Source: Sinosporangium siamense
Lineage (GTDB): Bacteria; Actinomycetota; Actinomycetes; Streptosporangiales; Streptosporangiaceae
Reading direction: 5' to 3'
NCBI RefSeq assembly: GCF_016863435.1
Contig: NZ_BOOW01000057.1
Location: forward strand, 1 to 64,000
Length of the DNA: 64,000 nucleotides
Shown: one piece after another, positions 8,458 to 25,203 of the stretch
Layout: each line of letters starts with the position of its first letter
Numbering within the stretch: position 1 is the first letter of the stretch
The notes under the pieces: model-generated
The model's input: the letters and a program-made list of their open reading frames with translations, nothing else
What the model was told of the DNA's origin: nothing
Databases searched by the model: none
Position numbers and translations under genes: made by a program

Positions 8458-10437
8458 TCATTCCCGTGTCGGCCTGGTGATCTTTCCGGACGTCTTCCAA
8501 TCGCGATAGGTGGTAGCGAACTCGGACTCGTAGGTGCCGCCGCCCCCTACGGGGACCTTCCATACCAGATTGAATTTCTTCGGTCGGTTCTCAGTATCGA
8601 TGGCGAGGGTGTAGGAGACGAAGGAGTTGTTCGTCTCACTGTCTATATCAACACCGAGCCACGAGCTGAGCAGTGTCCGTAATCGGCCGCTTGTCTCGCC
8701 TGCGGGGAGGACTCCAGAATACGTTCGGCCTTTTCTGTGCATTCGCTCGGTATTTAAGACCAACTCTTGGATGACGGACGGCCCTGCGGTGCCGGCAACC
8801 ATAAGGGCATACCAACTCGCCTCCCCTGAGGCCTGCTCCACCAGAGCCACGGAAGACGCTCCTGGTGAATCCAGATACAAGTCTCCATTACCGGTGATCA
8901 CGTAGCCCTCGGCGGGGTATTCGTCAGAGTCGACCCTCATCTTGAAATCGTCGGAGTGCCGTGAACCGCGGTTCATGAGCCGACCAATCGCTTTCGCTGC
9001 GACGTTGCTCTGAGTGAAGCCGCCTTCGAATGAGAATGCGGCTGCGGGCGTCACTCTTAGTGCCAGGTCGAGGGCAGCGGCAAGTTCGACTGGGGTGCGG
9101 GGTGCGGGAAGTCGTGCGGTGGAGTGGGTTGGCGCGGTCGGTGAGGTCTCTGCTTCAGTGGACGGTGTCCGATTTGCGGGGGAGGCGGTGGCCACTCCTG
9201 GCGACTGATGTTGCCGGCTGGGCGAGTCCTGCAGATTGGCAAGAAACATCGGACCGGCGACCCCGATGGCCGCCAGCGACGCGGCGGCAGGTAAGAGAAG
9301 TCGGCGTAAACGACGCTTGCTCGGTTGCGGCAACTCCGTCGGCCAGACTGCCGTGGGTTCAACGCGGAAGGCCCAGGTGCGATCCAATCGGGTTGTGATA
9401 TCGGCTGTGGGATCCCACTCTGTGGTTCTGCTTTCTCCGTGCTGCTCTCGCCATGCGTCGGCCACGGCTTTGAAAATCTCAGCAAGGGCAGGCCTCGCTT
9501 CAGGCGACTTCGCCAGAGCTCTGTCAACGGTCGGTCGGAGCCTTTCGGGCAGCATCCCGGTGTCAACCACGTCGTTTATGACCTTGAGGGCGAGAACCTC
9601 AGGTCGACCCGCTCCATAAGGTTGCACCCCCGTAGCGGCGTACACGACAACCAGTGCCCAGCCGTACACATCTGCCGCCGGCCCGGTTGGCCCACCGACA
9701 TACTCTTCCGGGCTTACCCACCCAGGAGAGCCGATCATCGAGCCGGATCCCGTGAGAGATGTCGCATCGAGTGAGCGGGCGATCCCGAAGTCGACCAGTC
9801 GCGGGCCTGCGTGTGACAGCATCACGTTGGAGGGCTTGAGGTCGCGGTGCACCACCTCCGCCTTGTGGACGGCGACCAGTGCCTCCGCGAGTCCAGCGGC
9901 GAGTCCAAACAACTCGTCGCCGCTGAGAGGTCCCCGGGCTCTGACATATTCATCCAGGCTTCGCCCGGTGATGTATTCCGTCGCGAGCCATGGCTGGTCG
10001 GCTTCCGCGTCCGCTGCGAGGATCCTGACGCAACAAATTCCCTGAACTCGGCGCAGCATCGCGATTTCGCGCCGGAACCGAGCTCTGAACTCCGGATCTG
10101 CTGTGTGCATGTCATGAATTAGCTTGACTGCGGCTCGTTGTCCAGCGGCGTCGACTCCGGCATACACAATTCCCATGCCTCCGGTGCCAAGCCGTCCGAC
10201 TATGCGATACGGTCCGACTCTCTCCGGGTCCCGTGGTTGTAGCGGAAGGAAGTCAGGTGGGTTGGGCTCCGATGTCGAAGGGGAGGGCTCAGTCCACCAC
10301 AACCAGTACGGCGGTGCCGCCGGCCAGTGCGGGTCGGGGCCGGCCCAGTCCACCGGCGGCTCCCATCCTTCCGGGACAGTCCATCCGGGTGGGGGGTTGA
10401 AGGACCAATGGGCGGCAGGGCGTGGGGGGATGCTCAA
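8458..10437 (-). CDS. Transmembrane Ser/Thr protein kinase with Trp/Pro-rich module and extracellular sensor
   Basis: A 659-aa protein starting at TTG 10437. Order: Trp/Pro module (residues 2-48, IPPRPAAHWSFNPPPGW to APPYWLWW), Hanks-type kinase (about 75-335), linker, one membrane span (about 388-406), Thr/Ser/Pro-rich stalk, and an extracellular domain (about 465-659). Kinase motifs are intact: GTGGMGIVY loop, AAVKLI lysine, HRDLKPSNV catalytic loop and VDFGIAR. The extracellular part, with SFEGGFTQSNVAAKAIGR and GYVITGNGDLYLDS, resembles LppX/LprG-like beta-sheet lipoprotein domains that bind hydrophobic ligands. It probably senses an envelope signal; its substrates may include the two neighbouring module proteins (inference). 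Confidence 0.88.
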   Translation of the reverse strand: MSIPPRPAAHWSFNPPPGWTVPEGWEPPVDWAGPDPHWPAAPPYWLWWTEPSPSTSEPNPPDFLPLQPRDPERVGPYRIVGRLGTGGMGIVYAGVDAAGQRAAVKLIHDMHTADPEFRARFRREIAMLRRVQGICCVRILAADAEADQPWLATEYITGRSLDEYVRARGPLSGDELFGLAAGLAEALVAVHKAEVVHRDLKPSNVMLSHAGPRLVDFGIARSLDATSLTGSGSMIGSPGWVSPEEYVGGPTGPAADVYGWALVVVYAATGVQPYGAGRPEVLALKVINDVVDTGMLPERLRPTVDRALAKSPEARPALAEIFKAVADAWREQHGESRTTEWDPTADITTRLDRTWAFRVEPTAVWPTELPQPSKRRLRRLLLPAAASLAAIGVAGPMFLANLQDSPSRQHQSPGVATASPANRTPSTEAETSPTAPTHSTARLPAPRTPVELAAALDLALRVTPAAAFSFEGGFTQSNVAAKAIGRLMNRGSRHSDDFKMRVDSDEYPAEGYVITGNGDLYLDSPGASSVALVEQASGEASWYALMVAGTAGPSVIQELVLNTERMHRKGRTYSGVLPAGETSGRLRTLLSSWLGVDIDSETNNSFVSYTLAIDTENRPKKFNLVWKVPVGGGGTYESEFATTYRDWKTSGKITRPTRE

Positions 10438-10916: not shown

Positions 10917-11801
10917 TTACTCCGATCCGCGCATCTGCTGCGCCACCAGTTCGGCGAACTCGACGACAGGTGGTTCGAGGTCGGCCCACGACCGTGCGGC
11001 CCAGCCTGCGGTCGGGCCGGGGAGCTCCGGGATCGGCACCAGCCGGAGGCCGGGGTGGACCGATGGAGCCCAATCGGGAACGGTCGCCACGACGGCGCGG
11101 CTCACGCCCAGTTCGGCGAGTAGCAGGGCGGTGTCCCAGTCCGAGACGGCCTGGGATGGGAACACGCCCTCGCCGAGGGCCGCGTCGAGGCGGCCCCGGG
11201 AGCTTGACGATACCGGCAGCACGATGTTGGGGATGTCGGCGAGTTCGGGCGGGCTCAGGCTCGTCCGTGCCGCCATCGGGTCGTCGCGATTGACTGCCAG
11301 CGACCACTGCAATTCGATCAGCGGGCGCAGCTCGACGTCGGGGATCGGGCCGCTGATGGAGATCAGGGCGATGTCGGCGCGGTTCGCGGCCAGGTCGGTG
11401 AGGCATGCCCGACTGGTCGGCTGCGTGCGCAGGGTCAGCTGCACGCCGGGGTGGCGGCTGCGCAGCTCCAGGATCGCCTTGGGCATGAAGTGCCGGACGG
11501 TGGCGGCTCCCGAGCTGACCCGCACCTCGCCTGCTCCGCCGGCGGCCAGTGCGCGCAACTGTTGGGCCGCTGCGTCGATCCGGCCCACTCCGGCGACTGC
11601 CGCGTCACGCAGCAACCGCCCGGCCGATGTGGGCAGTACGCCGCGGGGACGCCGCTCGAGAAGGCTCAGGCCGAACTCCCGCTCCAGGCGGCGCACGTGC
11701 TGGCTCACCGCCGACTGGCTGCACGACAGGGCCCGCGCCACCGCGGTGAAGCTGCCCCGCTCGCAGACCTCAACGAACACCCGCAAGTCATCCAGCGTCA
11801 T
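10917..11801 (-). CDS. LysR-family transcriptional regulator
   Basis: A 294-aa protein of typical LysR length. Residues 1-60 form the winged helix-turn-helix (MTLDDLRVFVEVCERGSFTA, then QSAVSQHVRRLEREFG), followed by the helical linker and a periplasmic-binding-protein-like effector domain (about 90-290). It is transcribed divergently from the permease and the catabolic operon, the classical arrangement for a LysR activator responding to the pathway's substrate. The 178-bp intergenic region contains GGGTCA (11822-11827) and TTGACT (11845-11850), a loose dyad that may be its binding site. The ligand is not known; by context it is the substrate of the operon. Confidence 0.92.
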   Translation of the reverse strand: MTLDDLRVFVEVCERGSFTAVARALSCSQSAVSQHVRRLEREFGLSLLERRPRGVLPTSAGRLLRDAAVAGVGRIDAAAQQLRALAAGGAGEVRVSSGAATVRHFMPKAILELRSRHPGVQLTLRTQPTSRACLTDLAANRADIALISISGPIPDVELRPLIELQWSLAVNRDDPMAARTSLSPPELADIPNIVLPVSSSSRGRLDAALGEGVFPSQAVSDWDTALLLAELGVSRAVVATVPDWAPSVHPGLRLVPIPELPGPTAGWAARSWADLEPPVVEFAELVAQQMRGSE

Positions 11802-11979: not shown

Positions 11980-13395
11980 GTGTCCGAACCCCCCACCAGC
12001 ATCGAAAACCCCTCTCAATTCCACCGCGTGATGACCTGGCGGGACGCGTTCTCGCTGGCGATCGCGCTGCCCGCCAGCGCGTTCGCGCTGGTCGGATATT
12101 GGACCGGCGCGCTCGGCGCGTGGGCGGCCGTCGCGCTGCTCGCCGTGTCGGGGCTGCTCGCGATCGGGCAGAACTTCGTGTACGCCGAGATGGCGGCGAT
12201 GTTCCCGGACAAGCCCGGCGGCATCGCGTTGTACGCCTCGGCCGCCTGGAGTGGTCGCAGCCGCCCACTCGGCGCACTCGCCTCGGCGGGTTACTGGATC
12301 GGATGGTCGTTCGGTCTGGCCGGGAACGCGCTCGTGATCGGTGAACTGATCAAGGCGCAGTGGCTGCCGGACACCGGGACATTGCAGGTCGGTCCGCTGC
12401 ACCTGGGCAGTGCACACGCCGTGGCGGTGGCCGCGCTGGTGCTGGTGTGGCTGCTCAACACGGCAGGGATCCGGCCCGCGGTTCGGCTGAGCACGATCGT
12501 CAACACCCTGGTGCTGGTGGTGCTCGCCGCGGCCGGCGTTACGGCGCTCCTCACCGGGGGTCTGCACCTGGACCGGCTGACCTGGGGCCTCGGTGGCGAC
12601 GGCCAGTCGGCGTTCGTGGTCGCGTGCGTGTGGTTGTTCCTCATGGGCTGGACCGTCTACGGCACCGAGGTCGCCGCCACGTTCACCCCGGAGTACCGCA
12701 ACCCGCGTTCGGACGCTCCCCGGGCGCTCGTCTGGTCGGGCGTCGCCGCGCTGGCCGTGTTCGTGCTGATGCCGGTGCTCGCCGCGGGCACGACGGGCGA
12801 GGCGGGCATCACGGCGGAGCCTCTCGGGTTCACCGTCGTGATGTTCGAGAACCTGTTCGGCGGTGCCGGCTGGCTCGCTGTGGTCGTGCTGTGCCTGGCC
12901 ATGCTCAACCTCATGTCGGTGGCGACCGCCGACAGCGGGCGGGCTCTGCACGGCATGGCGGTCGAGGGACTGACCGTCCGCGGTCTCGGCGTCTTCAACT
13001 CCGCGGGTATGCCCGCCCGCGCCATGACCGTGGGGCTGCTGGTCAACGTCGGCCTGGTCGTGTTCATCGGCAACCTGCTGGGCGTCGTGTTCGCCTCCAA
13101 CGTCGGCTACATGATCTCCGTCGTCATCGCGCTCAGCGGTTATGTGCTGCTGCGGCGGGCGGACACGACTCCTGACCGGGCCTTCCGGCTGCACCGGTGC
13201 TGGGTGCCGATCGCCGCCGCGCTCGCCGGGATCAACCTGCTGCTGCTGGCGGTCGCCGTACTCAATCCGGAGCTGACCGGCTACGGCAGCTGGCGCGACG
13301 AACTGATCGGGTTCGGCGTGCTGGCCCTGGCCATGACCCTCTACGCCGTTCGCCGTCTCGGCGATCGGACCCCGACTTACGAGAACCCGAGGTGA
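11980..13395 (+). CDS. APC-family amino acid/amine permease
   Basis: A 471-aa integral membrane protein starting at GTG 11980 with GGAAGGAG just upstream. About twelve membrane segments are visible from residue 20 on. The first segment carries SLAIALPASAFALVGYWTGA and the next MAAMFPDKPGGIALYASAAW, the conserved P-x-x-GG region of the amino acid-polyamine-organocation family. It is the first gene of the operon and probably imports the substrate, here likely a zwitterionic or cationic nitrogen compound. It is not a BCCT-type carnitine/betaine carrier, which is notable given the carnitine-type enzymes behind it. The stop overlaps the next start by one base. Confidence 0.9.
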   Translation: MSEPPTSIENPSQFHRVMTWRDAFSLAIALPASAFALVGYWTGALGAWAAVALLAVSGLLAIGQNFVYAEMAAMFPDKPGGIALYASAAWSGRSRPLGALASAGYWIGWSFGLAGNALVIGELIKAQWLPDTGTLQVGPLHLGSAHAVAVAALVLVWLLNTAGIRPAVRLSTIVNTLVLVVLAAAGVTALLTGGLHLDRLTWGLGGDGQSAFVVACVWLFLMGWTVYGTEVAATFTPEYRNPRSDAPRALVWSGVAALAVFVLMPVLAAGTTGEAGITAEPLGFTVVMFENLFGGAGWLAVVVLCLAMLNLMSVATADSGRALHGMAVEGLTVRGLGVFNSAGMPARAMTVGLLVNVGLVVFIGNLLGVVFASNVGYMISVVIALSGYVLLRRADTTPDRAFRLHRCWVPIAAALAGINLLLLAVAVLNPELTGYGSWRDELIGFGVLALAMTLYAVRRLGDRTPTYENPR

Positions 13396-14354
13396 TGAGC
13401 ATGTGGCAACCGTCCGTCGCACCAGGCGACGTCGAGCGGATCGCCTGTGTGGGAGCCGGCGTCATCGGCGGCGGCTGGGTGGCACACTTCCTGGCCCGTG
13501 GCCGCCGGGTCACCGCATGGGACCCCGCGCCAGGCGCCGAGGACCGGCTGCGCACGCTGGTCGACGCCGCGTGGCCCGCGCTGGAGTCGCTCGGGCTCGC
13601 CGACGGCGCCACGCGCGACCGTCTCACGGTCGTCGGCACCCTCGAAGAGGCCGTCGCCGACGCCGAGTTCGTGCAGGAGAGCGCGCCGGAAGATCTCGGA
13701 CTGAAGTCCGACCTGCTCGCCCGCATCGACGCCGCGGCGCCCGTCGGCGTCGTGATCGGCTCGTCGACGTCCGGCTACCGGATGACCGACATGCAGGCCG
13801 CCGCCGCGCACCCGGAACGCCTCGTCGTCGGCCACCCGTTCAACCCGCCATATCTGGTGCCGCTGGTAGAGGTCGTCGGAGGGGAACGCACGGACCCGGC
13901 CGCGGTCGCCTGGGCCGAGGAGTTCTACACGCTGGCCGGCAAGACCGTGATCGTGATGGATCGCGAGGTGCCCGGGTTCATCGCGAACCGCCTGCAAGAG
14001 GCGCTGTGGCGGGAGGCCCTGCACATGCTCGACACGGGCGAGGCCACCGTCGCCCAGATCGAGACCGCCGTGACCGCGGGGCCCGGGTTGCGCTGGCCGT
14101 TCCACGGCCCGTGCACCACCTTCCACCTGGCCGGTGGCGAAGGGGGCATGGCGCACGCGCTCGACCATTTCGGCCCTGCGCTGGAATACCCGTGGACCCG
14201 GCTGGTGAGCCCGGCGCTGACCGGCGACCTGCGGGAGGCGCTGGTGACGGGGGCGGCTCAGGTTACCGGCGGCCGGTCCACCGCGGACCTGATCGCTGAG
14301 CGGGACCGGCGGCTGATCGCGGTCCTGCGGGCAATGCGTGAGGTGCGGGCATGA
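13395..14354 (+). CDS. L-carnitine dehydrogenase-type 3-hydroxyacid dehydrogenase
   Basis: A 319-aa NAD-dependent enzyme. ATG 13395 overlaps the permease TGA. The N-terminal Rossmann fold shows IACVGAGVIGGGWVAHFLAR; further conserved blocks are VQESAPEDLGLKSDLLARID, SSTSGYRMTDMQ, VGHPFNPPYLVPLVEVVGG and PGFIANRLQEALWREALHML. The unfused length, the missing CoA-binding features and the thioesterase/BKACE neighbours fit carnitine 3-dehydrogenase, which oxidises L-carnitine to 3-dehydrocarnitine, better than 3-hydroxybutyryl-CoA dehydrogenase. In characterised carnitine pathways the same three activities occur together (dehydrogenase, BKACE, thioesterase). A related quaternary-amine or amino beta-hydroxy acid could be the real substrate. 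Confidence 0.82.
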   Translation: MSMWQPSVAPGDVERIACVGAGVIGGGWVAHFLARGRRVTAWDPAPGAEDRLRTLVDAAWPALESLGLADGATRDRLTVVGTLEEAVADAEFVQESAPEDLGLKSDLLARIDAAAPVGVVIGSSTSGYRMTDMQAAAAHPERLVVGHPFNPPYLVPLVEVVGGERTDPAAVAWAEEFYTLAGKTVIVMDREVPGFIANRLQEALWREALHMLDTGEATVAQIETAVTAGPGLRWPFHGPCTTFHLAGGEGGMAHALDHFGPALEYPWTRLVSPALTGDLREALVTGAAQVTGGRSTADLIAERDRRLIAVLRAMREVRA

Positions 14355-14848
14355 CCGGCGTCCTGAGTGACGCGTCCGAGGTTCCGCCGCTGCACCGGTC
14401 CGACGTGTCCGAGGTTCCGCCGCTGTACCGGTCCCTCGAAGACGAGTGGATCGACGCCAACGGGCACCTCAGCGAGGCGTACTACGTGCTGGTTTTCGGA
14501 GAGGCCACCGAGCACGCGATGGCGCATGTGGGGATGGCGCCGGACTACCGCACGGAGACAGGGTGCTCGCTGTTCACGGTGGAGGCCCACCTGCGTTATC
14601 TCGACCAGGTGCTGCCGGGTGAGCGGCTCGAGGTGCGCACGACGGTGATCGGGGTGGACGCGAAGCGGCTGCTGCTGTGGCACGAGATGGCGGCAGGCGG
14701 CCGGTTGCGGGCCACGGCGGAGGTGCTCGGCGTCCACGTCGACATCCCGGGCGGCACCTCCTGTCCCTTCCCGGACGGGGTGCGCGCCGCCGCCGAGGCG
14801 CGGCTTCGGCCGGTGCCGCAGGCCGCGGGCCGGGTGTGGCGGCGATGA
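14351..14848 (+). CDS. Hotdog-fold thioesterase (betainyl-CoA thioesterase type)
   Basis: A 165-aa hotdog protein, ATGA-coupled to the dehydrogenase. The signature WIDANGHLSEAYYVLVFGEA contains the acidic residue and the NGH loop of 4-hydroxybenzoyl-CoA-thioesterase-like enzymes. In rhizobia the equivalent domain is fused to carnitine dehydrogenase, and it hydrolyses betainyl-CoA to glycine betaine. The first 28 residues are odd: an 11-residue block (DASEVPPLHRS / DVSEVPPLYRS) is present twice, from a 33-bp tandem duplication. GTG 14405, inside the second copy, may have been the original start and may still be used. Substrate is inferred from context. Confidence 0.8.
   Translation: MTGVLSDASEVPPLHRSDVSEVPPLYRSLEDEWIDANGHLSEAYYVLVFGEATEHAMAHVGMAPDYRTETGCSLFTVEAHLRYLDQVLPGERLEVRTTVIGVDAKRLLLWHEMAAGGRLRATAEVLGVHVDIPGGTSCPFPDGVRAAAEARLRPVPQAAGRVWRR
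14369..14434 (+). repeat. 33-bp in-frame tandem duplication at the thioesterase N-terminus
   Basis: Bases 14369-14401 and 14402-14434 differ at only two positions, shared core GTCCGAGGTTCCGCCGCTG. The period is a multiple of three, so the reading frame survives with 11 extra residues. Confidence 0.9.
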
Positions 14849-15804
14849 GGCTGCTCACCGCGAGCGACGTATACGCCCTGCTCGACCCGGACGCGGCGAT
14901 CGCGACCCAGCGGGCCGCGTTCACGGCTCTGGCCACAGGCGACGCCTGGCAACCGGACAAGATCGGCGGCGGTCCGGACGGCGCGCGCTCCACGGTCTTC
15001 TGCTACGCCGCCCGCCTTGATGCGGCGACCGGGCCGGTGTCGAAGTTCGGCAGCGTCAACCCCGGCAATTCCGCGCTGGGCCTGCCCTCGATCCACGCCG
15101 TGCTGGTGGCGCTGCACCCCGAGACCGGTGCGCCCGTCGCGGTGCTCGACGGCGGCGCCGTCACCACGCTGCGGACGTCGGCGGCGAGCGCGGTGGCGGT
15201 CGCGGAGCTGGCCCGGCCGGGTGCGACCCGGCTGGCGGTGCTCGGTACGGGCATCCAGGGACGCGCCCACGTTCGCGCGATCTCCAGGGTGCTCCCACTG
15301 CGGGATGTGACCATGTGGTCCCCGGTTCCCGAGGAACGCGAGCAGGCCGCCCGCGAGCTGGCCGCAGACGGGTATCCCGTCCGGGCCGTCGCCGACGTGG
15401 CCGGGGCGGTGGCCGAGGCCGACGTCGTGGTCTGCGCGACGCTCGCCACCGAGCCGATCCTCCCGCCCGAGCTGCTGCGCCCCGGCGCCACCGTGGTGAG
15501 CATCGGCTCCTTCGAGGAGCACCGCCGCGAGATAGGCACGGACCTGCTGGCGGCGAGCGCCGCGGTCGTCGTCGACCACGTGTCGACCGCCCGCGCCCAC
15601 GCCGGGCCGGTGGTCGCCGCCCGGCGGCCGATGGAGCTGCTCGCGCTCGGCGACGTGCTGACCGGACGCGCGACCGCGCGCCGGCACCCGGACGACCTGG
15701 TGACCTACCTGAGCGTCGGCCTCGGCGTGCAGGACGCCGCCGCCGCGTGGCATGTGGTCGAGCGTGCTGAGGTGCTGTGTGCCGGGTGGGAGGTCGCCTG
15801 GTGA
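14845..15804 (+). CDS. Ornithine cyclodeaminase / mu-crystallin family dehydrogenase
   Basis: A 319-aa protein ATGA-coupled to the thioesterase gene (ATG 14845). Conserved blocks are SKFGSVNPGNSALGLPSIHA, DGGAVTTLRTSAASAVAVAE and the dinucleotide site VLGTGIQGRAHVRAI. The family includes ornithine cyclodeaminase, lysine cyclodeaminase, ketimine reductases, alanine dehydrogenase and N-(1-amino-carboxyethyl) ligand dehydrogenases, all acting on amino or imino acids with NAD(P). In this operon it probably handles an amino/imino-acid intermediate. The last 21 codons are echoed in a decayed copy directly downstream. Confidence 0.82.
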   Translation: MRLLTASDVYALLDPDAAIATQRAAFTALATGDAWQPDKIGGGPDGARSTVFCYAARLDAATGPVSKFGSVNPGNSALGLPSIHAVLVALHPETGAPVAVLDGGAVTTLRTSAASAVAVAELARPGATRLAVLGTGIQGRAHVRAISRVLPLRDVTMWSPVPEEREQAARELAADGYPVRAVADVAGAVAEADVVVCATLATEPILPPELLRPGATVVSIGSFEEHRREIGTDLLAASAAVVVDHVSTARAHAGPVVAARRPMELLALGDVLTGRATARRHPDDLVTYLSVGLGVQDAAAAWHVVERAEVLCAGWEVAW

Positions 15805-15914
15805 CGCGGGCACGCCGACCATGAACCGCCGCCGCGTGGCACGTCGTCGAACGCGCCGAGGCGCTGTGTGCCGGGCGGGAGATCGCCTGGTGACGCGGGC
15901 GAACCGACCACGAC
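15737..15914 (+). repeat. 89-bp tandem duplication of the end of the mu-crystallin-like gene
   Basis: Bases 15737-15825 recur at 15826-15914 with a constant offset of 89 bp. The second copy still encodes AWHVVERAEALCAGREIAW and a TGA stop, but lies behind the true stop with no start of its own, so it is an untranslated relic. It separates the otherwise overlapping genes of the operon. Confidence 0.85.
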
Positions 15915-15937
15915 GAGAGCCGAGAGGGGAGAACCCG

Positions 15938-17359
15938 ATGGACGAACTGCATCACATGTCGGCAACCGACGCGCTGCGCGCCTTCCGCGCCCGGCGGCTG
16001 TCGCCGGTTGAGCTGACCGAGGCGGTGATCGCCCGCGCCGAACGGACCGAGCCGGTCGTCAACGCGTTGTGCCACCGCTTCTTCGACGAGGCACTGCGGC
16101 AGGCCAAGCTGGCCGAACGCCGCTATGCGGGCCAGGGTGGGCCGCTGTGGCCGCTGGAGGGGTTGCCCACCGTCGTCAAGGAGGACGAACCGGTCGAGGG
16201 CCAACCCTGGACTCAGGGATCGCTGCAGTATCGCGACGCCGTCGCCGGGCACACCTCGCTTTTCGTCCGGCGCCTCCTCGACGCCGGCGTGATCGTACAC
16301 GCCCGGAGTACGGCCTCGGAGTTCGCCTCCGCCGCGTTCACGCACTCGGCGCTCTGGGGCGTCACCCGCAATCCGTGGAACCCCGAGTTCTCTCCCGGCG
16401 GTTCTTCCGGTGGCTCGGGCGCGGCGCTCGCCGCCGGGTCGACGGTGCTGGCGACGGGATCGGACACCGCGGGCTCGATCCGGGTGCCCGCCTCGTTCAG
16501 CGGTGTGGTCGGGTTCAAGCCGCCTCACGGCCGCGTGCCGGTGGATCCGCCCTACCACCTCGACACCTACGTTCACTCCGGTGTGCTGGCCCGCACTGTC
16601 GCCGACGTCGCGCTGACGCAGAACGTCGTGGCCGGGCCCCACCCTGGCGACGTCGGCTCGCTACGGCCCCGTCACGTGCTGCCGGACCCCGCCGAACTCG
16701 GCCGCGACCTGCGCGGGATGCGGATCGCGCTGTCGGAGGATCTCGGTGACTGGGCGGTCGACCCGGCGGTCCGCCGCAACACCCGGGAGTACGGCGAGCG
16801 GCTGCGAGCGGCAGGAGCCCATGTCGAGGAGGTCGGCCTCCGGGTGCCGCGGGCGCAGGTGATGCGCGCGGCGGCCATCCACTTCCATCACGGGTTCGGC
16901 GCCGCCGTCGCGGCCGAGGGACGAGAGCCCGGCGCCCGTCTCACCCCATATGCGCAGGCGTTCGCGCGATGGGCGGCCGAGGGCGCCGCCGACGCCGGCG
17001 TGCTCGACGGATTGGCGATCGAGGCCGACCTCTACCGGCCCGTCGGCGAGTTGTTCGAGCGGTTCGACGCGCTCGTCTGCCCGACCGCCGCAACTAATGG
17101 GCTGGTGGCGGGCGAGGACTACGTCGACCACGGCCCGGAGGTCGACGGCGAGCGGCTCGGGCACTACCTGGAGTCGCTGCTCGCGCTCCCGTTCAACATC
17201 ATGAACCGCTGCCCCGTGCTGGCCGTACCGTCCGGCTTCGCCGGCAACGGGGTGCCCACCGGGGTGCAGATCGTCGGGCGGCCGTTCGACGACACCACGC
17301 CGTTCCGGCTCGGGATGGCGGTCGAGCAGCGGACGCACTGGCCTGAGGTCGGGGCATGA
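15938..17359 (+). CDS. Amidase signature family hydrolase
   Basis: A 473-aa cytoplasmic amidase starting at ATG 15938 behind GAGAGGGGA. The Ser-cisSer-Lys triad is visible: Lys in LPTVVKEDEPVEGQPWTQGS, the Gly/Ser loop SPGGSSGGSGAALAAGS with the cis-Ser, and GSDTAGSIRVPASFSG with the nucleophile Ser. VKED stands where most amidases have KDx. These enzymes hydrolyse carboxamides to acid plus ammonia. Together with the nitrilase-type gene at the operon end it suggests that the imported substrate or an intermediate is an amide. It is ATGA-coupled to the following oxidase gene. Confidence 0.88.
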   Translation: MDELHHMSATDALRAFRARRLSPVELTEAVIARAERTEPVVNALCHRFFDEALRQAKLAERRYAGQGGPLWPLEGLPTVVKEDEPVEGQPWTQGSLQYRDAVAGHTSLFVRRLLDAGVIVHARSTASEFASAAFTHSALWGVTRNPWNPEFSPGGSSGGSGAALAAGSTVLATGSDTAGSIRVPASFSGVVGFKPPHGRVPVDPPYHLDTYVHSGVLARTVADVALTQNVVAGPHPGDVGSLRPRHVLPDPAELGRDLRGMRIALSEDLGDWAVDPAVRRNTREYGERLRAAGAHVEEVGLRVPRAQVMRAAAIHFHHGFGAAVAAEGREPGARLTPYAQAFARWAAEGAADAGVLDGLAIEADLYRPVGELFERFDALVCPTAATNGLVAGEDYVDHGPEVDGERLGHYLESLLALPFNIMNRCPVLAVPSGFAGNGVPTGVQIVGRPFDDTTPFRLGMAVEQRTHWPEVGA

Positions 17360-18558
17360 GCGCGCGAGACGCCGACGTGGCGGTCGTCGGCGCCGGCGTG
17401 GTCGGTGCCTTCGCCGCCTACTACCTCGCCCGCGCGGGCGTGCGGGTGCTCGTGCTCGATCCGGAGCCGGCCGGGGGTGCCTCCGCCGGGAACGCCGGCC
17501 TGCTGGTCCCCAGTTACAGCCACCCGATGGCACACCCGCAAATGCTGGTCGAGGGGGTGCGGGCGCTGCTTGGCGGGAGCGGGGACATCGCCCTGAGGCG
17601 GCCGGTGCGACCCGCGACGCTGGCCTGGCTCGGCCGGTTCGCGTTCGCCGCGCGCCCCGGCCGGGCGTGGCGCGCGGCGCCGCGGCTGGCCGCGTTGGCC
17701 GACCGCAGCCTGCTGCTCTACGCCGAGTTCGCCGCCACCGAGCACCTCGACATCGGGCTGCGCGAGGCCGGGCTGCTCGCGGTGAGCCGCCACCGCCGCA
17801 CGCTGGACACCCAGCGGCGTGCCGCGGTACGGCTAAGCCACGTTGGCGTCGCCTCCGAGATGCTCGACGCGGCAGCGGTCGCGGCCACCGAGCCGGCCCT
17901 CGGCCCGGTGGCCGGCGGCGTACGGTTCCCCGGCGACGCCCTTCTGGACCCTCTGCTCGCGACCCGGGCCGCGCTGACCGCGGCCGAGCGGCACGGTGCC
18001 GTCCTGGTGCGGGCGGCAGCGCGGCGTGTGCGGCATGCGAGCGGCCGGATCACGGGCGTCGACACCGACACCGGTCCGGTCGCCACCACCACCGTAATCC
18101 TCGCCGCCGGGGCGGCGAGTGCCCTGCTGGCCCGATCGGCGGGCGTCCGGCTGCCGGTGGAACCCGGCTACGGCTGGAGCCTCACGGTGCCGGTGGCGGC
18201 GCCGCTTCTGCGCCACGCCGTCCTCGACCTCGACGCGCACGTCGTGATCGCCCAGCGTGACGACCGGCTGCGGCTGACCGGGGGCATGGAGCTCGGCGGG
18301 CCGCCCACGCCACCTGCTCCGGAGGCGTTTGCCGGGCTGCGCCGTACGGCATCGGCGCTGTTGCCCGGGGCCTCCCTCGACGGCACGGAGGTCCGGTGGT
18401 GCGGGGCCCGCCCGATGACCCCGGACGGTCTGCCGATCGTCCGGGAGGTCCGGCCCGGCCTCGTCGCCGCCACCGGACACGGGCAGCTCGGCATGACACT
18501 CGCCCCCGCGACCGGCGAACTGATCGCCACCGACCTCACCGCAAGGAGCCGTGTATGA
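17356..18558 (+). CDS. FAD-dependent oxidoreductase, D-amino-acid/sarcosine oxidase (DAO) family
   Basis: A 400-aa flavoprotein, ATGA-coupled on both sides. The N-terminal FAD-binding motif VAVVGAGVVGAFAAYYLARA and the following GGASAGNAGLLVPSYSHPMA are typical of DadA/sarcosine-oxidase-like enzymes; the C-terminal block WCGARPMTPDGLPIV and the FAD-contact loop TGHGQLGMTLAP are intact. Such enzymes oxidise secondary or tertiary amines or D-amino acids. In a carnitine-like pathway it could demethylate or deaminate a glycine-betaine-type product; this is inference. Confidence 0.88.
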   Translation: MSARDADVAVVGAGVVGAFAAYYLARAGVRVLVLDPEPAGGASAGNAGLLVPSYSHPMAHPQMLVEGVRALLGGSGDIALRRPVRPATLAWLGRFAFAARPGRAWRAAPRLAALADRSLLLYAEFAATEHLDIGLREAGLLAVSRHRRTLDTQRRAAVRLSHVGVASEMLDAAAVAATEPALGPVAGGVRFPGDALLDPLLATRAALTAAERHGAVLVRAAARRVRHASGRITGVDTDTGPVATTTVILAAGAASALLARSAGVRLPVEPGYGWSLTVPVAAPLLRHAVLDLDAHVVIAQRDDRLRLTGGMELGGPPTPPAPEAFAGLRRTASALLPGASLDGTEVRWCGARPMTPDGLPIVREVRPGLVAATGHGQLGMTLAPATGELIATDLTARSRV

Positions 18559-21020
18559 GCTCGCCACTGCACGGCATCCGTGTCCTCGACTTCGGCCAGT
18601 ACGTCGCCGGCCCCGCCGTCGCCCTGCTGCTCGCCGACCTGGGCGCCGAAGTGATCCGTATCGACCCGCCCGGCGGCCCGCGCTGGGCCTCTCCAGCGGC
18701 AGCCGCGCTCAACGCGGGCAAGAAGAGCATCGTGCTGGACCTGACCGAGCCCGCCGACGTCACGACCGCCCGCCGGCTGGTGGCAGGGGCCGATGTGGTG
18801 GTCGAGAACTTCCGGCCCGGCGTCATGGCCGGGTTCGGGCTCGGACCGGAGGACACGCTCGCGCTCAACCCCCGTGTGATCCACCTGTCCCTGCCCGGCT
18901 TCGCCGCGGCCGACCCGCGCCGCGAACTGCCGGCCTGGGAGGGGATCGTGCTGGCGGCGACCGGCGGCTTCACGGACATGGGACTGAACCGGATCCTCAT
19001 GGGCGCCGACCCGTCCTACACACCGCTGCCGCTGGCCTCGGCATACGCCGCGGCGCTCGGCGCGCTCGCGGTCGGCGCCGGGCTGGCCGCCAGGCGGCGC
19101 ACCGGGCGCGGCGACGCGTTCGAGGTGCCGCTCGCCGAAGCCGTGCTGGAAGGGCTGGCGTTCAACTCGCTGGCCGTCTCCGACCTCCCCCCGCGCTATC
19201 TCTCGCTGCGCGAGCACGAGATCGCTCGCCGGCGTGCCGCCGGGGAGCCGATGGACCTCACCTATGAGCGGCTACAGGAGCTTCTCGACCCGTTCTACCG
19301 CAGCTACCCCTGCCAGGACGGCAGGCTGTTCTACCACTGCTGCCCCGCCCACCGCACTCACGCGATCCGGTCACTGCAGCTGCTCGGCATCTGGGACACC
19401 GTCCTCGCGGAGGGCATCCCGATGGCCGACTCCTATCTGTCCAGCGACAGCTGGCCCGACGGCGCGGACTGCACGCTGCTGGCCTACCCGCTCTCCGCCC
19501 ACTGGGCGGCCCGGCTGTCGGAGCTGATCGCGGCCGCCTTCCTGCGGCACCCGGCGGAGGAGTGGGAACGGCGCTTCGACGCGGCGGGCATCCCGGGCGC
19601 CGCCCACCGCAGCACCCTGGAGTGGATGCGGTCGGAGCACCCGCGCGCGGCCGGGCTCGTCACCACCGTCGACGATCCGGTCCACGGCGAGCTGACCGTT
19701 CCCGGACCCGTCGTCTGGACCGAGGGCACCCCGCCGGGCCGCAGGCCCGCCCCCGCGCTCGACGCCGACCGGGCCGCGATCCTCGCCGGCCTGCCACCGG
19801 GCCCGCCGACGGGACCGCCGCCGGGCCCGTCGGCCGAGCCCGGCGGGCTTCCGCTGGCCGGCATCCGCATCCTCGACGTCACTAACGTCATCGCAGGGCC
19901 GGTGATCGGCGCGACCCTCGCCCGGTTCGGCGCCGAGGTCGTCAAGATCGACCCACCGACGCCGGGCTTCGACCCTTACCACACCGTGGTCATCGGCATG
20001 CACTCTCAGCGCGGCAAGCGCAGTGTGCTGGCCGACCTGCGCACTCCGGCCGGTCGTGAGGTGCTCGACCGGTTGCTGCCCACCGTCGACGTCGTCACGT
20101 TCAACGGCAGCGAGCGCCAGCTCGGCGACCTCGGCCTGGACCCGCGGCGGCTGCGGGAAATCCGACCTGAGATCGTGCTCGTGCGGGTGGACGCCTACGG
20201 CGGGCCGGGTCACGGGCCACGCAGCCACGCGGCGGGTTACGACGACAATGTGCAGGCGTGCACCGGGATCATGACCAGGTTCGGCGGCGGCCCCGGCACC
20301 CCGGAGGAGCACGCGCACCTTGGGACGATCGACGCCCTGGCCGGGTTCTGCGGCGCCTTCGCCGTCGTCGCCGCGCTGGCGGGACGCGGCGAACACGCCC
20401 CGGTGATGCGCACCTCCCTCGCCGCCGCCGGGCAACTGCTGCAGATCCCGTTCCTCTTCGACGGCGCGGGCCGCGACGACGTTCCGGAACCCGGCGGGCC
20501 CGACGTGCTCGGCGAGCACGCGGGATACCGGTGCTACCCGGCAGCGGACGGCTGGTTCTTCCTGGCGGGCCCGGCCGATGCCGTAGCGGCCGCGCTCGGT
20601 CTCGACGCGGCCGCGCCGCAGGACCTGCTCGTCACGCGGTTCCGGGAACAACCGGTCGAAGCGTGGGCCGAGCTGCTCGGCCCGCACGGGGTCGCGGTGC
20701 ACCGGATCGAGCGCATCGCCGAACTGCGCTCCCGGAGGCTGGTACGGCAGAGCACCGGACCCGTCCCGCTGCGCGACTCGGCCGTGTTCGTCCGCCACGA
20801 CCGGCACCCCAGCGGCCGTGAGGTGGACCTCATCGCCCCACAGGCGGTCCGGCCCCGGCACGCGGCGGTGCGGATGCCGTCCGACGCCCCGCGCTACGGC
20901 GCGCACACCCGCGAGGTGCTCGCCGAGCTCGGCTTCACGCCTGCCGAGATCGAGGCGATGGCCGCCGACGGCGCGGTCGCCGACGGCTGGACCACCGACC
21001 ACACCTACCTGCCCACCTGA
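18555..21020 (+). CDS. Fused double CaiB/BaiF-family CoA-transferase
   Basis: An 821-aa protein, about twice the usual ~400 residues, ATGA-coupled to the oxidase gene. Two complete class III CoA-transferase domains are joined head to tail: domain 1 opens HGIRVLDFGQYVAGPAVALL and domain 2 (about residue 430) AGIRILDVTNVIAGPVIGAT, linked by a Pro/Gly-rich stretch. The position of the catalytic Asp is filled in domain 2 (LGTIDALAGFCGAF) but appears to be Ser in domain 1 (LPLASAYAAALGAL), suggesting an active half and a structural half. CaiB-type enzymes move CoA between carnitine-type acids, so this one probably activates or recycles CoA for the pathway. Confidence 0.85.
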   Translation: MSSPLHGIRVLDFGQYVAGPAVALLLADLGAEVIRIDPPGGPRWASPAAAALNAGKKSIVLDLTEPADVTTARRLVAGADVVVENFRPGVMAGFGLGPEDTLALNPRVIHLSLPGFAAADPRRELPAWEGIVLAATGGFTDMGLNRILMGADPSYTPLPLASAYAAALGALAVGAGLAARRRTGRGDAFEVPLAEAVLEGLAFNSLAVSDLPPRYLSLREHEIARRRAAGEPMDLTYERLQELLDPFYRSYPCQDGRLFYHCCPAHRTHAIRSLQLLGIWDTVLAEGIPMADSYLSSDSWPDGADCTLLAYPLSAHWAARLSELIAAAFLRHPAEEWERRFDAAGIPGAAHRSTLEWMRSEHPRAAGLVTTVDDPVHGELTVPGPVVWTEGTPPGRRPAPALDADRAAILAGLPPGPPTGPPPGPSAEPGGLPLAGIRILDVTNVIAGPVIGATLARFGAEVVKIDPPTPGFDPYHTVVIGMHSQRGKRSVLADLRTPAGREVLDRLLPTVDVVTFNGSERQLGDLGLDPRRLREIRPEIVLVRVDAYGGPGHGPRSHAAGYDDNVQACTGIMTRFGGGPGTPEEHAHLGTIDALAGFCGAFAVVAALAGRGEHAPVMRTSLAAAGQLLQIPFLFDGAGRDDVPEPGGPDVLGEHAGYRCYPAADGWFFLAGPADAVAAALGLDAAAPQDLLVTRFREQPVEAWAELLGPHGVAVHRIERIAELRSRRLVRQSTGPVPLRDSAVFVRHDRHPSGREVDLIAPQAVRPRHAAVRMPSDAPRYGAHTREVLAELGFTPAEIEAMAADGAVADGWTTDHTYLPT

Positions 21021-21212
21021 AACGGGGTTCGGGGTCCGGCACCAGGACCCCGTCTACCACCGACCATCGCCACCACGGCCCCGTCCACCACCGACCACGC
21101 CCACCCGTCCACCTGAAACGGGGTTCGGGGTCCGGCACCAGGACCCCGTCTACCACCGACCATCGCCACCACGACCGCGTCCACCACCGACCGCACCGAC
21201 CCGCCCACCTGA
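21015..21212 (+). repeat. Two 96-bp direct repeats plus start of a third, each with a stem-loop
   Basis: Units begin at 21015 and 21111, and the first bases of a third at 21207; each starts with ACCTGA, which in the first copy is the stop region of the CoA-transferase. Every full unit carries GGGGTCC...GGACCCC, an attenuator- or terminator-like hairpin (about 21031-21051 and 21127-21147). Two such hairpins in series separate the CoA-transferase from BKACE inside the operon and could reduce read-through. Confidence 0.85.
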
Positions 21213-21240
21213 ACCACACCCGATAAGGAAGGAGCGCCCG

Positions 21241-22167
21241 ATGCGCGCGCCGTACGACCCCATCGTCCTCACCGCAGCCGTCACCGGAGGCGACGTCCTG
21301 CCCAGCCAGAGCCCCGCCATCCCCTGCGGGCCGGAAGCGATCATCGAGGCGGCCGTGGCGGCCGCGCGGGCCGGCGCCACCGCCGTGCATCTGCATGCCC
21401 GGGAGGCCGACGGCCGCCCGACGGGCTCGGCCTCGATGTTCAAGGAGATCGTCGCCGGAGTGCGCGAGCAGTCCGACGTCGTCATCAACATCACCACCGG
21501 CGGGTCCGTCGACATGACGCCCGACGAGCGCCTGGAGGGTGTCGTGGCCGTGGTGCCGGACATCGCGACGCTTAACCTGGGCACGATGAACTTCGAGGGC
21601 TTCCCGACCCGTTCCCGGTGGCCGCAGGTGCGCCACGACTGGGAGCGGCAGGTGCTGGAGCAGTCCGGGTCGGTGGTCTTCACCAACACGCTCGCCACGA
21701 TGCGCCGGTTCGCCACGACGTTCCGTGAGCTCGGGGTGACCCCGGAGCTGGAGGTATACGACCTCAGTCATCTGTCGATGGCCCGGTTCCTGATCGACGA
21801 GGGCACGCTCACCGGACCGGTCCGCGTCCAGTTCATCCTCGGCGTGCTCGGCGGTGTCGGCGGCAGCCCGCACGACCTGTTCGCGCTGCGTGAGGCGGCC
21901 GGCCGCATCCTCGGGCCCGACCTGGCCGCCGTCAGTGTCGCGGGCGTCGGCTACCCGGCGCAGCTGCGGTTCGGTGCGATCGCCGCCGCGTCCGGTATGG
22001 ACGTCCGGGTGGGGGTCGAGGATAACTTGCGCATCCGGCGCCGCCGCCAGGCCGCCGACTCGGCCGAACTCGTCGCGGCCGCCGTGGCGATCGCCGACCA
22101 GCTGGAGCGCCCGATCGCCACCCCGCAACAGCTGCGTGCCGAGCTCGCAGCGGTGCGCCCGTCATGA
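21241..22167 (+). CDS. Beta-keto acid cleavage enzyme (BKACE, DUF849 family)
   Basis: A 308-aa protein starting at ATG 21241 behind AAGGAAGGAG. BKACE enzymes are zinc-dependent TIM barrels that condense a beta-keto acid with acetyl-CoA to give acetoacetate and a new acyl-CoA. Metal ligands are seen in AVHLHAREADGRP (two His) and VGVEDNLRIR (Glu); the opening IVLTAAVTGGDVLPSQSPAI and the block INITTGGSVDMTPDERL are standard. With the carnitine-type dehydrogenase upstream, the expected substrate is 3-dehydrocarnitine, giving betainyl-CoA plus acetoacetate, but BKACE specificities vary widely. ATGA-coupled to the nitrilase gene. Confidence 0.92.
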   Translation: MRAPYDPIVLTAAVTGGDVLPSQSPAIPCGPEAIIEAAVAAARAGATAVHLHAREADGRPTGSASMFKEIVAGVREQSDVVINITTGGSVDMTPDERLEGVVAVVPDIATLNLGTMNFEGFPTRSRWPQVRHDWERQVLEQSGSVVFTNTLATMRRFATTFRELGVTPELEVYDLSHLSMARFLIDEGTLTGPVRVQFILGVLGGVGGSPHDLFALREAAGRILGPDLAAVSVAGVGYPAQLRFGAIAAASGMDVRVGVEDNLRIRRRRQAADSAELVAAAVAIADQLERPIATPQQLRAELAAVRPS

Positions 22168-23006
22168 GCACCTTGCGGATCGCATGCCTGCAGAGCGCGG
22201 GCCACGGCCGTGACGTCGAAGCCAACCTGGCCGAGCTGGACTCTGCCGCGGCAGCCGCGGCTGCCGCGGGCGCGGAGATGCTCGTCACACCCGAGATGTT
22301 CGTGACCGGCTACGACGTCGGGGACGTCGCCGCGCTCGCCGCCCTGCCGCTGGTCGAGCGGGTCGTCGCCATCGCGGCCGCCCGCGGCATCGCGGTCGTC
22401 GCGGGTCTGCCCGCCGTCCTGCCGGGCGGGGGCGTCGGCAACATGGCTGTCGTCGTCGGCGACGGCGGCGAGGTGCTGGCCGGCTACGCCAAGACCCACC
22501 TGTTCGGCGAGATCGACCGCCGGTTCCGCGCGGGAGAGGCGCCTGCGGCTGTCTTCGACTACCGCGGCGTGCGGTGTGCCGTCATGATCTGCTTCGATGC
22601 GGAGTTTCCTGAGTCCGTGCGGGTGGCGGCACTCGCGGGCGCGCACCTGGTGCTCGTGCCGACCGCCAACATGCATCCCTACGGCGCCGTCAATGAGCAC
22701 GTGATGTGGACCCGGGCCTGGGAGAACCAGGTCCACCTCGCCTACGTCAACCGGTGCGGTGCCGAAGGTGCGACCGTATATGTCGGCCGCACCCGCGTCA
22801 TCGGTCCTGACGGCACCGAGCTCGCGGCCGCCGGCACCGGGCCCGACCTCGTGTTCGCCACGATCGACACCGACGCCGTTGACAGTGCCCGGGCCGACTT
22901 CGACTACCTGTCCGAGCGCCGGCCGGTGCTCTATGGCACGCTCACCGTCTCCGCCGAGGACGAGGAAGCTCAGGAAACCGACGCCGGCACCGGCGAAACG
23001 GGCTGA
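22164..23006 (+). CDS. Nitrilase-superfamily carbon-nitrogen hydrolase (amidase branch)
   Basis: A 280-aa enzyme, ATGA-coupled to BKACE and last in the operon. The Glu-Lys-Cys triad is intact: VTPEMFVTGYDVGD (Glu), AKTHLFGEIDRRFRAG (Lys) and CAVMICFDAEFPESVRVAAL (Cys). Length and motifs place it with omega-amidases, carbamoylases and aliphatic amidases rather than true nitrilases. It probably removes ammonia from an amide or carbamoyl intermediate. Two amide hydrolases of unrelated folds in one operon is unusual and indicates a nitrogen-rich substrate. Confidence 0.9.
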   Translation: MSTLRIACLQSAGHGRDVEANLAELDSAAAAAAAAGAEMLVTPEMFVTGYDVGDVAALAALPLVERVVAIAAARGIAVVAGLPAVLPGGGVGNMAVVVGDGGEVLAGYAKTHLFGEIDRRFRAGEAPAAVFDYRGVRCAVMICFDAEFPESVRVAALAGAHLVLVPTANMHPYGAVNEHVMWTRAWENQVHLAYVNRCGAEGATVYVGRTRVIGPDGTELAAAGTGPDLVFATIDTDAVDSARADFDYLSERRPVLYGTLTVSAEDEEAQETDAGTGETG

Positions 23007-23332: not shown

Positions 23333-24226
23333 CTAAGCGAGCTGATCGAGGAATGCCCGCGTGTCCGTGAGGAAGCGGTCGTGGGCCTCCAGTTGTGCCC
23401 AGTGTCCGCAGTCGGGGACGGTGACGAGCCGGGCATGGGGAAGACGGTCGGCGGCGTGGCGTGAGCCGGCGGGATCGACGATGGGGTCGTTCTCGCCGTG
23501 GAAGATCAACGTGGGTGCGCTGATCTCGTGCACGCGGCCCGTGAGATCGTTTCGCATGCCGTGCCGTCCGAGGGTGGCCTGGTTGTAGCGGGCGTAGCCG
23601 AGCCCGGCGCCGGGTTTGCGGGCCTCGCGGACGAACTCGGCGACGACCTCGGGCGGGAGTGTTGCCGGGTCCTTGACGAGGGCCCGTACGGCGGTGCCGG
23701 AGAAGCGGTTGGCGAAGCGGGTGGCGGGGCGGAGCAGCCAGTCGGGGGCCTGCGCCGCCGCCCAGGCGCCGAAGTGCGCGATGCGGTTTCGGAAGATCGG
23801 TACGAGGCCGCCCGGAGCGACGAGTATGAGGCCCGCGACGCGATGAGGGTGCTCCAGGGCCAGATTGAGCGCGACGTCACCGCCCATGGACACGCCCGCC
23901 ACCACCGCCCGCGTGACCCCGAGCGCGGTCATGGCCTCGGCGACGACGCGGGCGAGTTCGCGCGGGCCGCCGGCGGGCGGGGCGTCGATGCTCCCCCCGA
24001 ATCCGGGCAGGTCCGGCGCCCACACCTCACGCTCGGCCGACAGCGGCTCGATGAGCCGATACCAGGAGATCGCCGCGTTGTCCGTCCCGCCGCCGTGGAT
24101 GAGCACAAGCGGGCTGGGATGCGGAGTAGGTGGTGGCACGTCCGGGCGGGCGTGAAGTACGCGTAGCCGTCCGGCGCCGGTGGAGATGTGGTGTTCCCTC
24201 GCACCGGGCGGGATGAGGTGGGTCAT
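23333..24226 (-). CDS. Alpha/beta hydrolase
   Basis: A 297-aa alpha/beta-fold hydrolase starting at ATG 24226, which overlaps the TetR stop (ATGA). Oxyanion-hole HGGG in LVLIHGGGTDNAAISWYRLI, nucleophile elbow VAGVSMGGDVALNLAL, acid HGENDPIVDPAGSRHAADRL and His VPDCGHWAQLEAH complete the triad. The pattern is that of esterases and meta-cleavage-product-type hydrolases. Translational coupling to TetR makes it the likely target of that repressor. The substrate is not readable from sequence. Confidence 0.88.
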   Translation of the reverse strand: MTHLIPPGAREHHISTGAGRLRVLHARPDVPPPTPHPSPLVLIHGGGTDNAAISWYRLIEPLSAEREVWAPDLPGFGGSIDAPPAGGPRELARVVAEAMTALGVTRAVVAGVSMGGDVALNLALEHPHRVAGLILVAPGGLVPIFRNRIAHFGAWAAAQAPDWLLRPATRFANRFSGTAVRALVKDPATLPPEVVAEFVREARKPGAGLGYARYNQATLGRHGMRNDLTGRVHEISAPTLIFHGENDPIVDPAGSRHAADRLPHARLVTVPDCGHWAQLEAHDRFLTDTRAFLDQLA

Positions 24227-24861
24227 CGTTGCTCCCGTTCGGCGATCAGCGCCTCGGCGAAGGCGACGAAGGCGCGTTTGCCGGCGTTCGTATCGGTGGT
24301 GCCGGTGTCGGCGGCGCGTGCCAGCAGCGTGCCCATGCCGAGGATGAGCTCGTCGACGCCGATGGCCAGCGCCTGTGTGGCGAGGGCCTGGTTCCACAGG
24401 GTGAGGTTCGCGGCGAGGACGTCCGCGTCCAGGTCCGCCGCCACGACGCCCTCGGCCTGGAGGGCGCGGATGAACTCGGCCCCGAGGAGTTCGCGTGCCC
24501 GGACACTCTCGCTGTCCTGCGGCAGGTCCCGTAGCGGCGTGGAGGGTTCCTGGTACAGGCGTAGCAGCGCCGGGCGTGAGTGCAGCGCGGTCACCGCGTG
24601 GACGTACAGCCGGGAGAACGAGCCGCCGTGGCGGTCGGCCTCCACCAGTTCGATCGAGCGGCGGATCGCCAGGACGATCTCGCGGTCGACGACGGCGCGG
24701 AGCAACGCGTTCTTGTCGGCGAACCGCAGGTAGAGCACGCCTTTCGCGACTGCGGCGCGGGCGGCGATCGCGTCCATCCGCACGCTGCCGAAGCCCTGTT
24801 CGGCGATGAGCCGGGCGGCGGCGTCGAGGATGACGTTCGTCTCGACACTGGGGCGGACCAT
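24223..24861 (-). CDS. TetR-family transcriptional regulator
   Basis: A 212-aa repressor. The N-terminal helix-turn-helix is clear: ILDAAARLIAEQGFGSVRMD followed by IAARAAVAKGVLYLRFADKN. ATG 24861 was chosen over TTG 24867 because AGAAGGG lies with correct spacing to it. The C-terminal ligand domain is helical and unassigned. The gene is first in a two-gene unit with the alpha/beta hydrolase, and a perfect palindrome directly upstream is the obvious autoregulatory operator. Confidence 0.9.
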   Translation of the reverse strand: MVRPSVETNVILDAAARLIAEQGFGSVRMDAIAARAAVAKGVLYLRFADKNALLRAVVDREIVLAIRRSIELVEADRHGGSFSRLYVHAVTALHSRPALLRLYQEPSTPLRDLPQDSESVRARELLGAEFIRALQAEGVVAADLDADVLAANLTLWNQALATQALAIGVDELILGMGTLLARAADTGTTDTNAGKRAFVAFAEALIAEREQR

Positions 24862-24906: not shown

Positions 24907-25203
24907 AGCTCTGTGCTGCTCGCCGGCCCCGGCGAAAGGTTCGTGGTCAGCTTCGAACGGCCCCCCTGACCTGCACTGACGCAATCGCGTGTGCCTGACT
25001 GCAGCACTGCTAGCCGTCTGTCGATCGCGTCTCGGATTCGCGCTGCGCGATCGACCCGGTCGGCCTCCGCGCGACCAAGGGTGTGGCGAGCTTCCTGCCT
25101 GTGGGGCGGGTTCGCCTTCTCAGCGCCAAGGTGGAGGTTGTCCCCCTCTTCGCCCTTCCGCGATTCGGTGAACCTTGGCGTGGTTCTGCGGATCGAAGAA
25201 GAC
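24907..25203 (+). other. Intergenic region before the DUF817 gene
   Basis: No gene is supported in either strand. It contains the divergent regulatory region for TetR (right to left) and the leader of the DUF817 gene; CGATCGC-type short palindromes around 25020-25060 are seen but not interpreted. A GTG-initiated in-frame extension (from about 25168) would add residues NLGVVLRIEED to the DUF817 protein. Confidence 0.35.

Follow-up and report, generated by a model that had tools for sequence, protein, structure and literature searches.

The first 64,000 nucleotides of contig NZ_BOOW01000057.1 of the actinomycete Sinosporangium siamense, called the window in the following, contain nine genes that lie on the forward strand behind a divergent LysR gene. 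Together they may form a single operon for the catabolism of a carnitine derivative or a close onium analogue, a reading to which we would give a little less than an even chance. Gene families were assigned with Pfam and NCBIfam and the coordinates were refined from the sequence. All nine genes named in a preliminary description of the locus were found in place, and their families were confirmed:

10917..11801, minus strand: LysR-family regulator, divergent (PF00126 and PF03466)
11980..13395, plus strand: APC-family permease
13395..14354, plus strand: carnitine-type 3-hydroxyacid dehydrogenase (CDH), starting with the ATG at 13395 or 13401
14351..14848, plus strand: 4HBT_2 hotdog thioesterase (TE; PF13279, E 6e-30)
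14845..15804, plus strand: enzyme of the ornithine cyclodeaminase (OCD)/mu-crystallin family (PF02423), accessory and not conserved
15737..15913: tandem duplication of the 3' end of the OCD gene (88 nucleotides), copies 86% identical
15938..17359, plus strand: amidase of the amidase-signature (AS) family (PF01425, E 7e-86)
17356..18558, plus strand: DAO, FAD-dependent amine/amino-acid oxidoreductase (PF01266, E 6e-67), accessory and not conserved
18555..21020, plus strand: double CaiB protein (CoA-transferase family III, two CoA_transf_3 domains), assigned to a sister family of DddD
20991..21182: tandem duplication of 96 nucleotides after the DddD-like gene, copies 94% identical
21241..22167, plus strand: BKACE (PF05853, E 2.6e-85), outside the carnitine-operon subfamily
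22164..23006, plus strand: nitrilase-superfamily amidase (CN_hydrolase; PF00795, E 2.6e-38)

The distances between the nine genes are, in order, -1, -4, -4, +133, -4, -4, +220, and -4 nucleotides. Thus, neighbouring genes overlap by one or four nucleotides at six of the eight junctions, in agreement with the earlier statement that most are joined by ATGA overlaps. The two tandem duplications (88 and 96 nucleotides) are located exactly at the only two junctions without overlap.

When 84,980 species genomes were scanned with an alignment of the double CaiB protein, four further named clusters came to light, in Nonomuraea indica, Streptosporangium saharense, Spongiactinospora rosea, and Amycolatopsis jejuensis. 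The order LysR, permease, CDH, TE, amidase, double CaiB, BKACE, and nitrilase is identical in all five actinomycete clusters, that of Sinosporangium siamense included. Because this order is kept in four other named actinomycetes the arrangement is not due to chance. LysR orthologues (65-92% identical) occupy the same place in the four other clusters, the permease orthologues there share 72-92%, and the amidase, nitrilase, and double CaiB protein are still 65-73% identical in Amycolatopsis. The preliminary description had proposed conservation as a check of whether the hydrolases belong to the carnitine-type core, and amidase and nitrilase are indeed co-linear with this core in the five genomes. 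The two remaining enzymes behave differently. OCD is intact in two of the four other clusters and DAO in one, so that an intact DAO is found only in Sinosporangium siamense and Spongiactinospora rosea. DAO is absent from Streptosporangium saharense, and Amycolatopsis jejuensis lacks both genes. In Nonomuraea indica (locus L063, 7600-10030), OCD is reduced to its first ~56 residues and DAO to ~40 residues near its end, which we read from the sequence as operon decay around a conserved core. Since they were lost or have decayed in relatives, OCD and DAO are not part of this core and were ruled out as core pathway steps; the weight that had been placed on them is not supported. Two BKACE orthologues at 92-95% identity were found among 299 genomes of the order, and because no additional one appeared in the 395 class-wide genomes searched, the cluster is rare. 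Similarly, the second half of the double CaiB protein matched only the Sinosporangium siamense genome when compared with 148 genomes of the class.

The known operon for the degradation of L-carnitine consists of a carnitine dehydrogenase, a BKACE (CdhC), and a betainyl-CoA thioesterase. The window genes resemble it in the families of CDH and TE, and the CDH nests inside the actinobacterial part of the clade formed by the CDHs of carnitine operons. It scores 362 bits (E 1.8e-108) against the L-carnitine dehydrogenase model NF005471 and does not reach the curated cut-off of 414, but neither does a CDH taken from an ordinary carnitine operon of actinobacteria (357 bits). The TE matches residues 350-489 of NF005716, which is the C-terminal part, as in fused carnitine dehydrogenases, and is 51% identical to the TE of a carnitine operon (L048). 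In contrast to the L-carnitine operon, the window contains a BKACE from another subfamily and adds the amidase, the nitrilase, and the CoA-transferase related to DddD. The transporter is also different: the operon encodes an APC permease, whereas the compared carnitine or DddD-linked loci contain ABC or BCCT transporters. The best NCBIfam model for this permease is trimethylamine N-oxide permease, at 145 bits far below the cut-off of 690. Could the locus still be an ordinary operon converting L-carnitine to glycine betaine, with amidase, nitrilase, and double CaiB carried along for other purposes? The carnitine-type CDH and TE would fit, and no second close CDH was found elsewhere in the genome. 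However, all five clusters keep the three supposed passengers in order, although OCD and DAO beside them are decaying, and the window BKACE falls outside the carnitine type. We therefore consider this explanation very improbable. A search for a second, carnitine-type BKACE in the genome gave none either: the only other BKACE shares 28% identity with that type. The preliminary proposal of a carnitine-type core (CDH, TE, BKACE) served by an APC importer is supported, with the amendment that the BKACE comes from a subfamily other than that of the carnitine operons.

The double CaiB protein comprises 821 residues with tandem CoA-transferase III domains, as in DddD (about 820-840 residues). In the alignment, its second half carries Asp593 within the invariant EEHAH-x-GTID motif, and its first half has Ser162 where the catalytic Asp is expected. 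Ser162 aligns with Asp175 of Rv3272, a position that differs between structure entries (Asp in 5yit, Ala in 5yiy). In full-length tblastn searches, the plasmid matches at 43-46% were DddD-type proteins including the locus of Sinorhizobium fredii NGR234, which is listed as a dddD carrier (PMC3338564). In a tree of 88 proteins, a canonical clade with ddd neighbours is split from groups of Oceanospirillales, of roseobacters and Halomonas, and of actinomycetes; we call the groups outside the canonical clade the DddD-sister family. Identity is 77% within the sampled canonical clade and 46-48% across the split, and the window protein shares 46% with the canonical clade and 49-51% with the other groups. 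Tree and identities thus place it in the sister family of DddD, outside the clade of dimethylsulfoniopropionate (DMSP) lyases. It was rejected as a true DddD because it falls outside the dddABC-linked clade, and as a plain CaiB-type carnitine CoA-transferase it scores 77 bits against a cut-off of 413 for the L-carnitine CoA-transferase model. With the DddD of Marinomonas, Psychrobacter, and NGR234 it shares the double CaiB architecture, the second-half GTID aspartate, and 44-48% identity, but it lies outside the clade linked to dddA/B/C/T, its sister relatives adjoin carnitine genes and amide hydrolases, and its activity is putative. The kinship to DddD, evident from tree, alignment, and identities, had been overlooked in the preliminary description.

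The genomic neighbourhoods of 31 loci of the canonical DMSP clade and 52 loci of the sister family differ: the proteobacterial sister genes have no dddB close by and lie next to carnitine genes or a gene similar to N,N-dimethylformamidase. The canonical loci contain DddB in 12 cases, DddC in 16, a dddA-like GMC gene in 14, and BCCT transporters in 10, while no dddA/B/C/T neighbours were found in the actinomycete clusters. With statistics that ignore shared ancestry, DddB is near none of the 52 sister loci but near 12 of the 31 DMSP-clade loci (p=1.5e-6), a CDH lies within 10 kb of nine sister loci but of no DMSP-clade locus (p=0.02), a gene similar to N,N-dimethylformamidase adjoins 20 sister loci but only two of the DMSP clade (p=0.002), and a CDH is encoded anywhere in the genome in 33 of 34 sister-family but 13 of 21 DMSP-clade genomes (p=0.001). 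GlxA/AraC-type regulators are present at half of the sister loci (26/52). Some sister genes are interleaved with BKACE, CDH, and TE (L077, L080), and in metagenome-assembled genomes of an Arenicellales and a Cohaesibacter species the sister gene is placed between the BKACE and a fused CDH-TE gene. The DddD-sister gene is thus found repeatedly together with carnitine genes and with an amide hydrolase, the hydrolases being unrelated to each other. The sister family and its tie to the carnitine genes are the strongest new element of this analysis, since they connect a widespread, unassigned family with amide hydrolysis and with catabolism of the carnitine type.

In roseobacters, Halomonas, and Shinella (L055, L056, L088, L099, L104, L116, L142, and others) a gene similar to the N,N-dimethylformamidase beta subunit (PF20254) follows directly 3' of the sister gene, and in the same loci (L055, L056, L088, etc.) a divergent GlxA/AraC regulator precedes the sister gene. 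A roseobacter example of such a pair is DSHI_RS18380-18385 of Dinoroseobacter shibae. A further link to quaternary amines is an MttB-family methyltransferase gene near the sister gene in Roseibium and Desulforhopalus (L072, L087, L089, L103, L118). A contig of 'Phormidium willei' (L102) with CDH and sister gene clusters with sequences from proteobacteria and is possibly a contamination.

Concerning the amide hydrolases, the nearest solved relatives of the amidase are an aryl acylamidase and the 6-aminohexanoate-cyclic-dimer hydrolase, and those of the nitrilase-family protein are the aliphatic amidases 5jqn and 3hkx (E about 1e-43), from which the window copy differs in being part of a catabolic operon. 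For the amidase, nitrilase, and permease, the gene context of homologues on plasmids was not informative. It had been suggested that the substrate is an amide or other derivative of a carnitine-like acid. This is plausible; the part of the argument that relied on DAO and the cyclodeaminase-family gene is not supported, given their decay or loss in relatives.

Because carnitine-type metabolism and, frequently, an amide hydrolase are common to the sister family, we favour an extended carnitine-type pathway, and the earlier idea of such a pathway is partly supported. The APC permease would import a zwitterionic or cationic amide, from which amidase and nitrilase would strip an N-acyl or carboxamide group. 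The double CaiB protein might then load CoA on the freed carboxylate and swap the beta substituent by elimination and hydration, yielding an L-3-hydroxy acid. CDH would oxidise this to the 3-keto acid, BKACE would convert the 3-keto acid and acetyl-CoA to acetoacetate and an onium acyl-CoA, and TE would release the onium acid, which would be glycine betaine if the skeleton is that of carnitine. LysR would be the regulator, and OCD and DAO optional side activities. The model for the central step is DddD, which performs CoA transfer, elimination, and hydration on DMSP to give 3-hydroxypropionyl-CoA (PMC8163506). For carnitine skeletons, and by analogy to the established chemistry of CaiB and CaiD, D-carnitine, crotonobetaine, or a beta-substituted gamma-butyrobetaine might be turned into L-carnitine. 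The gene set, the families, the key catalytic residues of double CaiB and BKACE, the conservation, and the tie of the sister family to carnitine genes are read from the sequences; what we infer from them is the order of the steps, the substrate, and what the double CaiB protein catalyses.

Several points weigh against this extended carnitine-type pathway. We know of no reaction for any DddD-sister protein, no natural amide of carnitine requiring both hydrolases has been established, and the co-occurrence counts are uncorrected for shared ancestry. Canonical DddD is considered an unlikely carnitine CoA-transferase (PMC7174347). A further point is the BKACE. It is 31-33% identical to the BKACEs of carnitine operons, and joining it to their clade is rejected (approximately unbiased (AU) test, p=0.003), a point that the preliminary description had missed. 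Whether or not a DddD-type gene is a neighbour, carnitine operons draw their CDH from one clade and their BKACE from one clade. Asp18 of the window BKACE occupies the column of Kce Glu14, as does an Asp in all window-type BKACEs sampled, whereas none of the 13 carnitine-operon BKACEs examined has an acid there. In Kce, Glu14 binds the 5-amino group of the substrate (PMC10470551). Judged from the alignment, Asp18 points to a C5 cation, as in Kce, as a better fit than the C4 cation of carnitine. The Zn-binding motifs H50-x-H52 and E260-D261 are present and invariant in orthologues, and the Arg after the GIG/AGxG motif is absent (AGVGY in the window BKACE, a GR or else GK or SR pair in most compared BKACEs).

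Asp18 would suit a 3-hydroxy acid whose onium group sits one carbon farther along the chain, for example gonyol (5-dimethylsulfonio-3-hydroxypentanoate) or a trimethylammonio analogue. CDH would produce the 3-keto acid, which BKACE would convert with acetyl-CoA to acetoacetate and DMSP-CoA (or beta-alanine-betaine-CoA); from the latter the DddD-sister protein would eliminate dimethyl sulfide (DMS) or trimethylamine, leaving 3-hydroxypropionyl-CoA. Such a C5-onium pathway is the main rival, unlikely in our view, though worth considering. It would explain why the BKACE was swapped away from the carnitine subfamily, and the BKACE product would be the presumed DddD intermediate (PMC8163506). The logic parallels lysine fermentation, in which the Kce product is deaminated by elimination. 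The likeness to Kce and Kal lies in the BKACE cleavage to a beta-substituted acyl-CoA and the acidic residue at the Glu14 column, but the candidate elimination enzyme of the window is a CoA-transferase family III fusion and not Kal. Bacteria use up gonyol along a route not yet known, but Ruegeria pomeroyi, Halomonas, and Sulfitobacter produced no DMS from it (PMC7221440). In addition, the double CaiB protein belongs to the sister family and lies outside the clade of DMSP lyases (46% identity to that clade, whose members share 77%), the proteobacterial sister family goes with carnitine-type BKACEs, the CDH bears no sign of a substrate change, and amidase and nitrilase are left without a role. 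That the operon serves gonyol or another C5-onium 3-hydroxy acid, with BKACE making DMSP-CoA directly and the DddD-sister protein cleaving it under release of DMS or trimethylamine, is rather doubtful. If true, actinomycetes would be a source of DMS or trimethylamine formed from a compound that bacteria degrade in an unknown way.

The nearest outside BKACEs (L035-L038) are ~65% identical to the window BKACE, have the same Asp at the Glu14 column, and adjoin a gene for a short-chain dehydrogenase/reductase (SDR). In L035 the BKACE also adjoins an XRE-cupin regulator, a family-5 solute-binding protein is encoded near the BKACEs of this clade, and a gamma-glutamyltranspeptidase-type gene is found near the relative in L036. 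The neighbours of these BKACEs, namely the SDR and in places the transpeptidase-type gene and the solute-binding protein, would agree with a pathway that breaks down a gamma-amino-beta-hydroxy acid of the gamma-amino-beta-hydroxybutyrate (GABOB) or statine type, bound as an amide or in a peptide. The amidase would free the acid, CDH and BKACE would shorten it to an aminoacyl-CoA, TE would free the amino acid, and DAO or OCD would handle the product. An operon uniting amidase, nitrilase, an amino-acid-type permease, DAO, and OCD would suit this scheme, but the CDH is in the carnitine clade, DAO and OCD are dispensable, and the DddD-sister protein, whose relatives track carnitine genes, would have no role. 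This makes the scheme improbable.

The DddD-sister family matters beyond this locus. In published surveys, about 35-40% identity or similarity to DddD suffices for a homologue to be counted as a DMSP lyase (PMC6309047, PMC13270143). A Microbacterium protein with 36% similarity failed to cleave DMSP (PMC6309047). Because the sister family is at 44-51% here, its members could be miscounted as DMS producers under such cut-offs, and the two-gene module of sister gene and PF20254 would pass as a DMSP lyase. The gene set suggests that a compound resembling carnitine is processed by a route not described so far. In such a compact actinomycete operon the substrate should be findable with few enzyme assays.

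Scans for promoters and terminators gave no signal above chance. The open reading frame 13403-14299, considered for the dehydrogenase, is a false frame without a family match, the real one being 13395/13401-14354. The flanks of the cluster, of which the kinase and the alpha/beta hydrolase were not found near the other actinomycete clusters, are unrelated to the operon and encode a Ser/Thr kinase (8458-10437, minus strand), an alpha/beta hydrolase (23333-24397, minus strand), and a DUF817 protein (24991-26031, plus strand).

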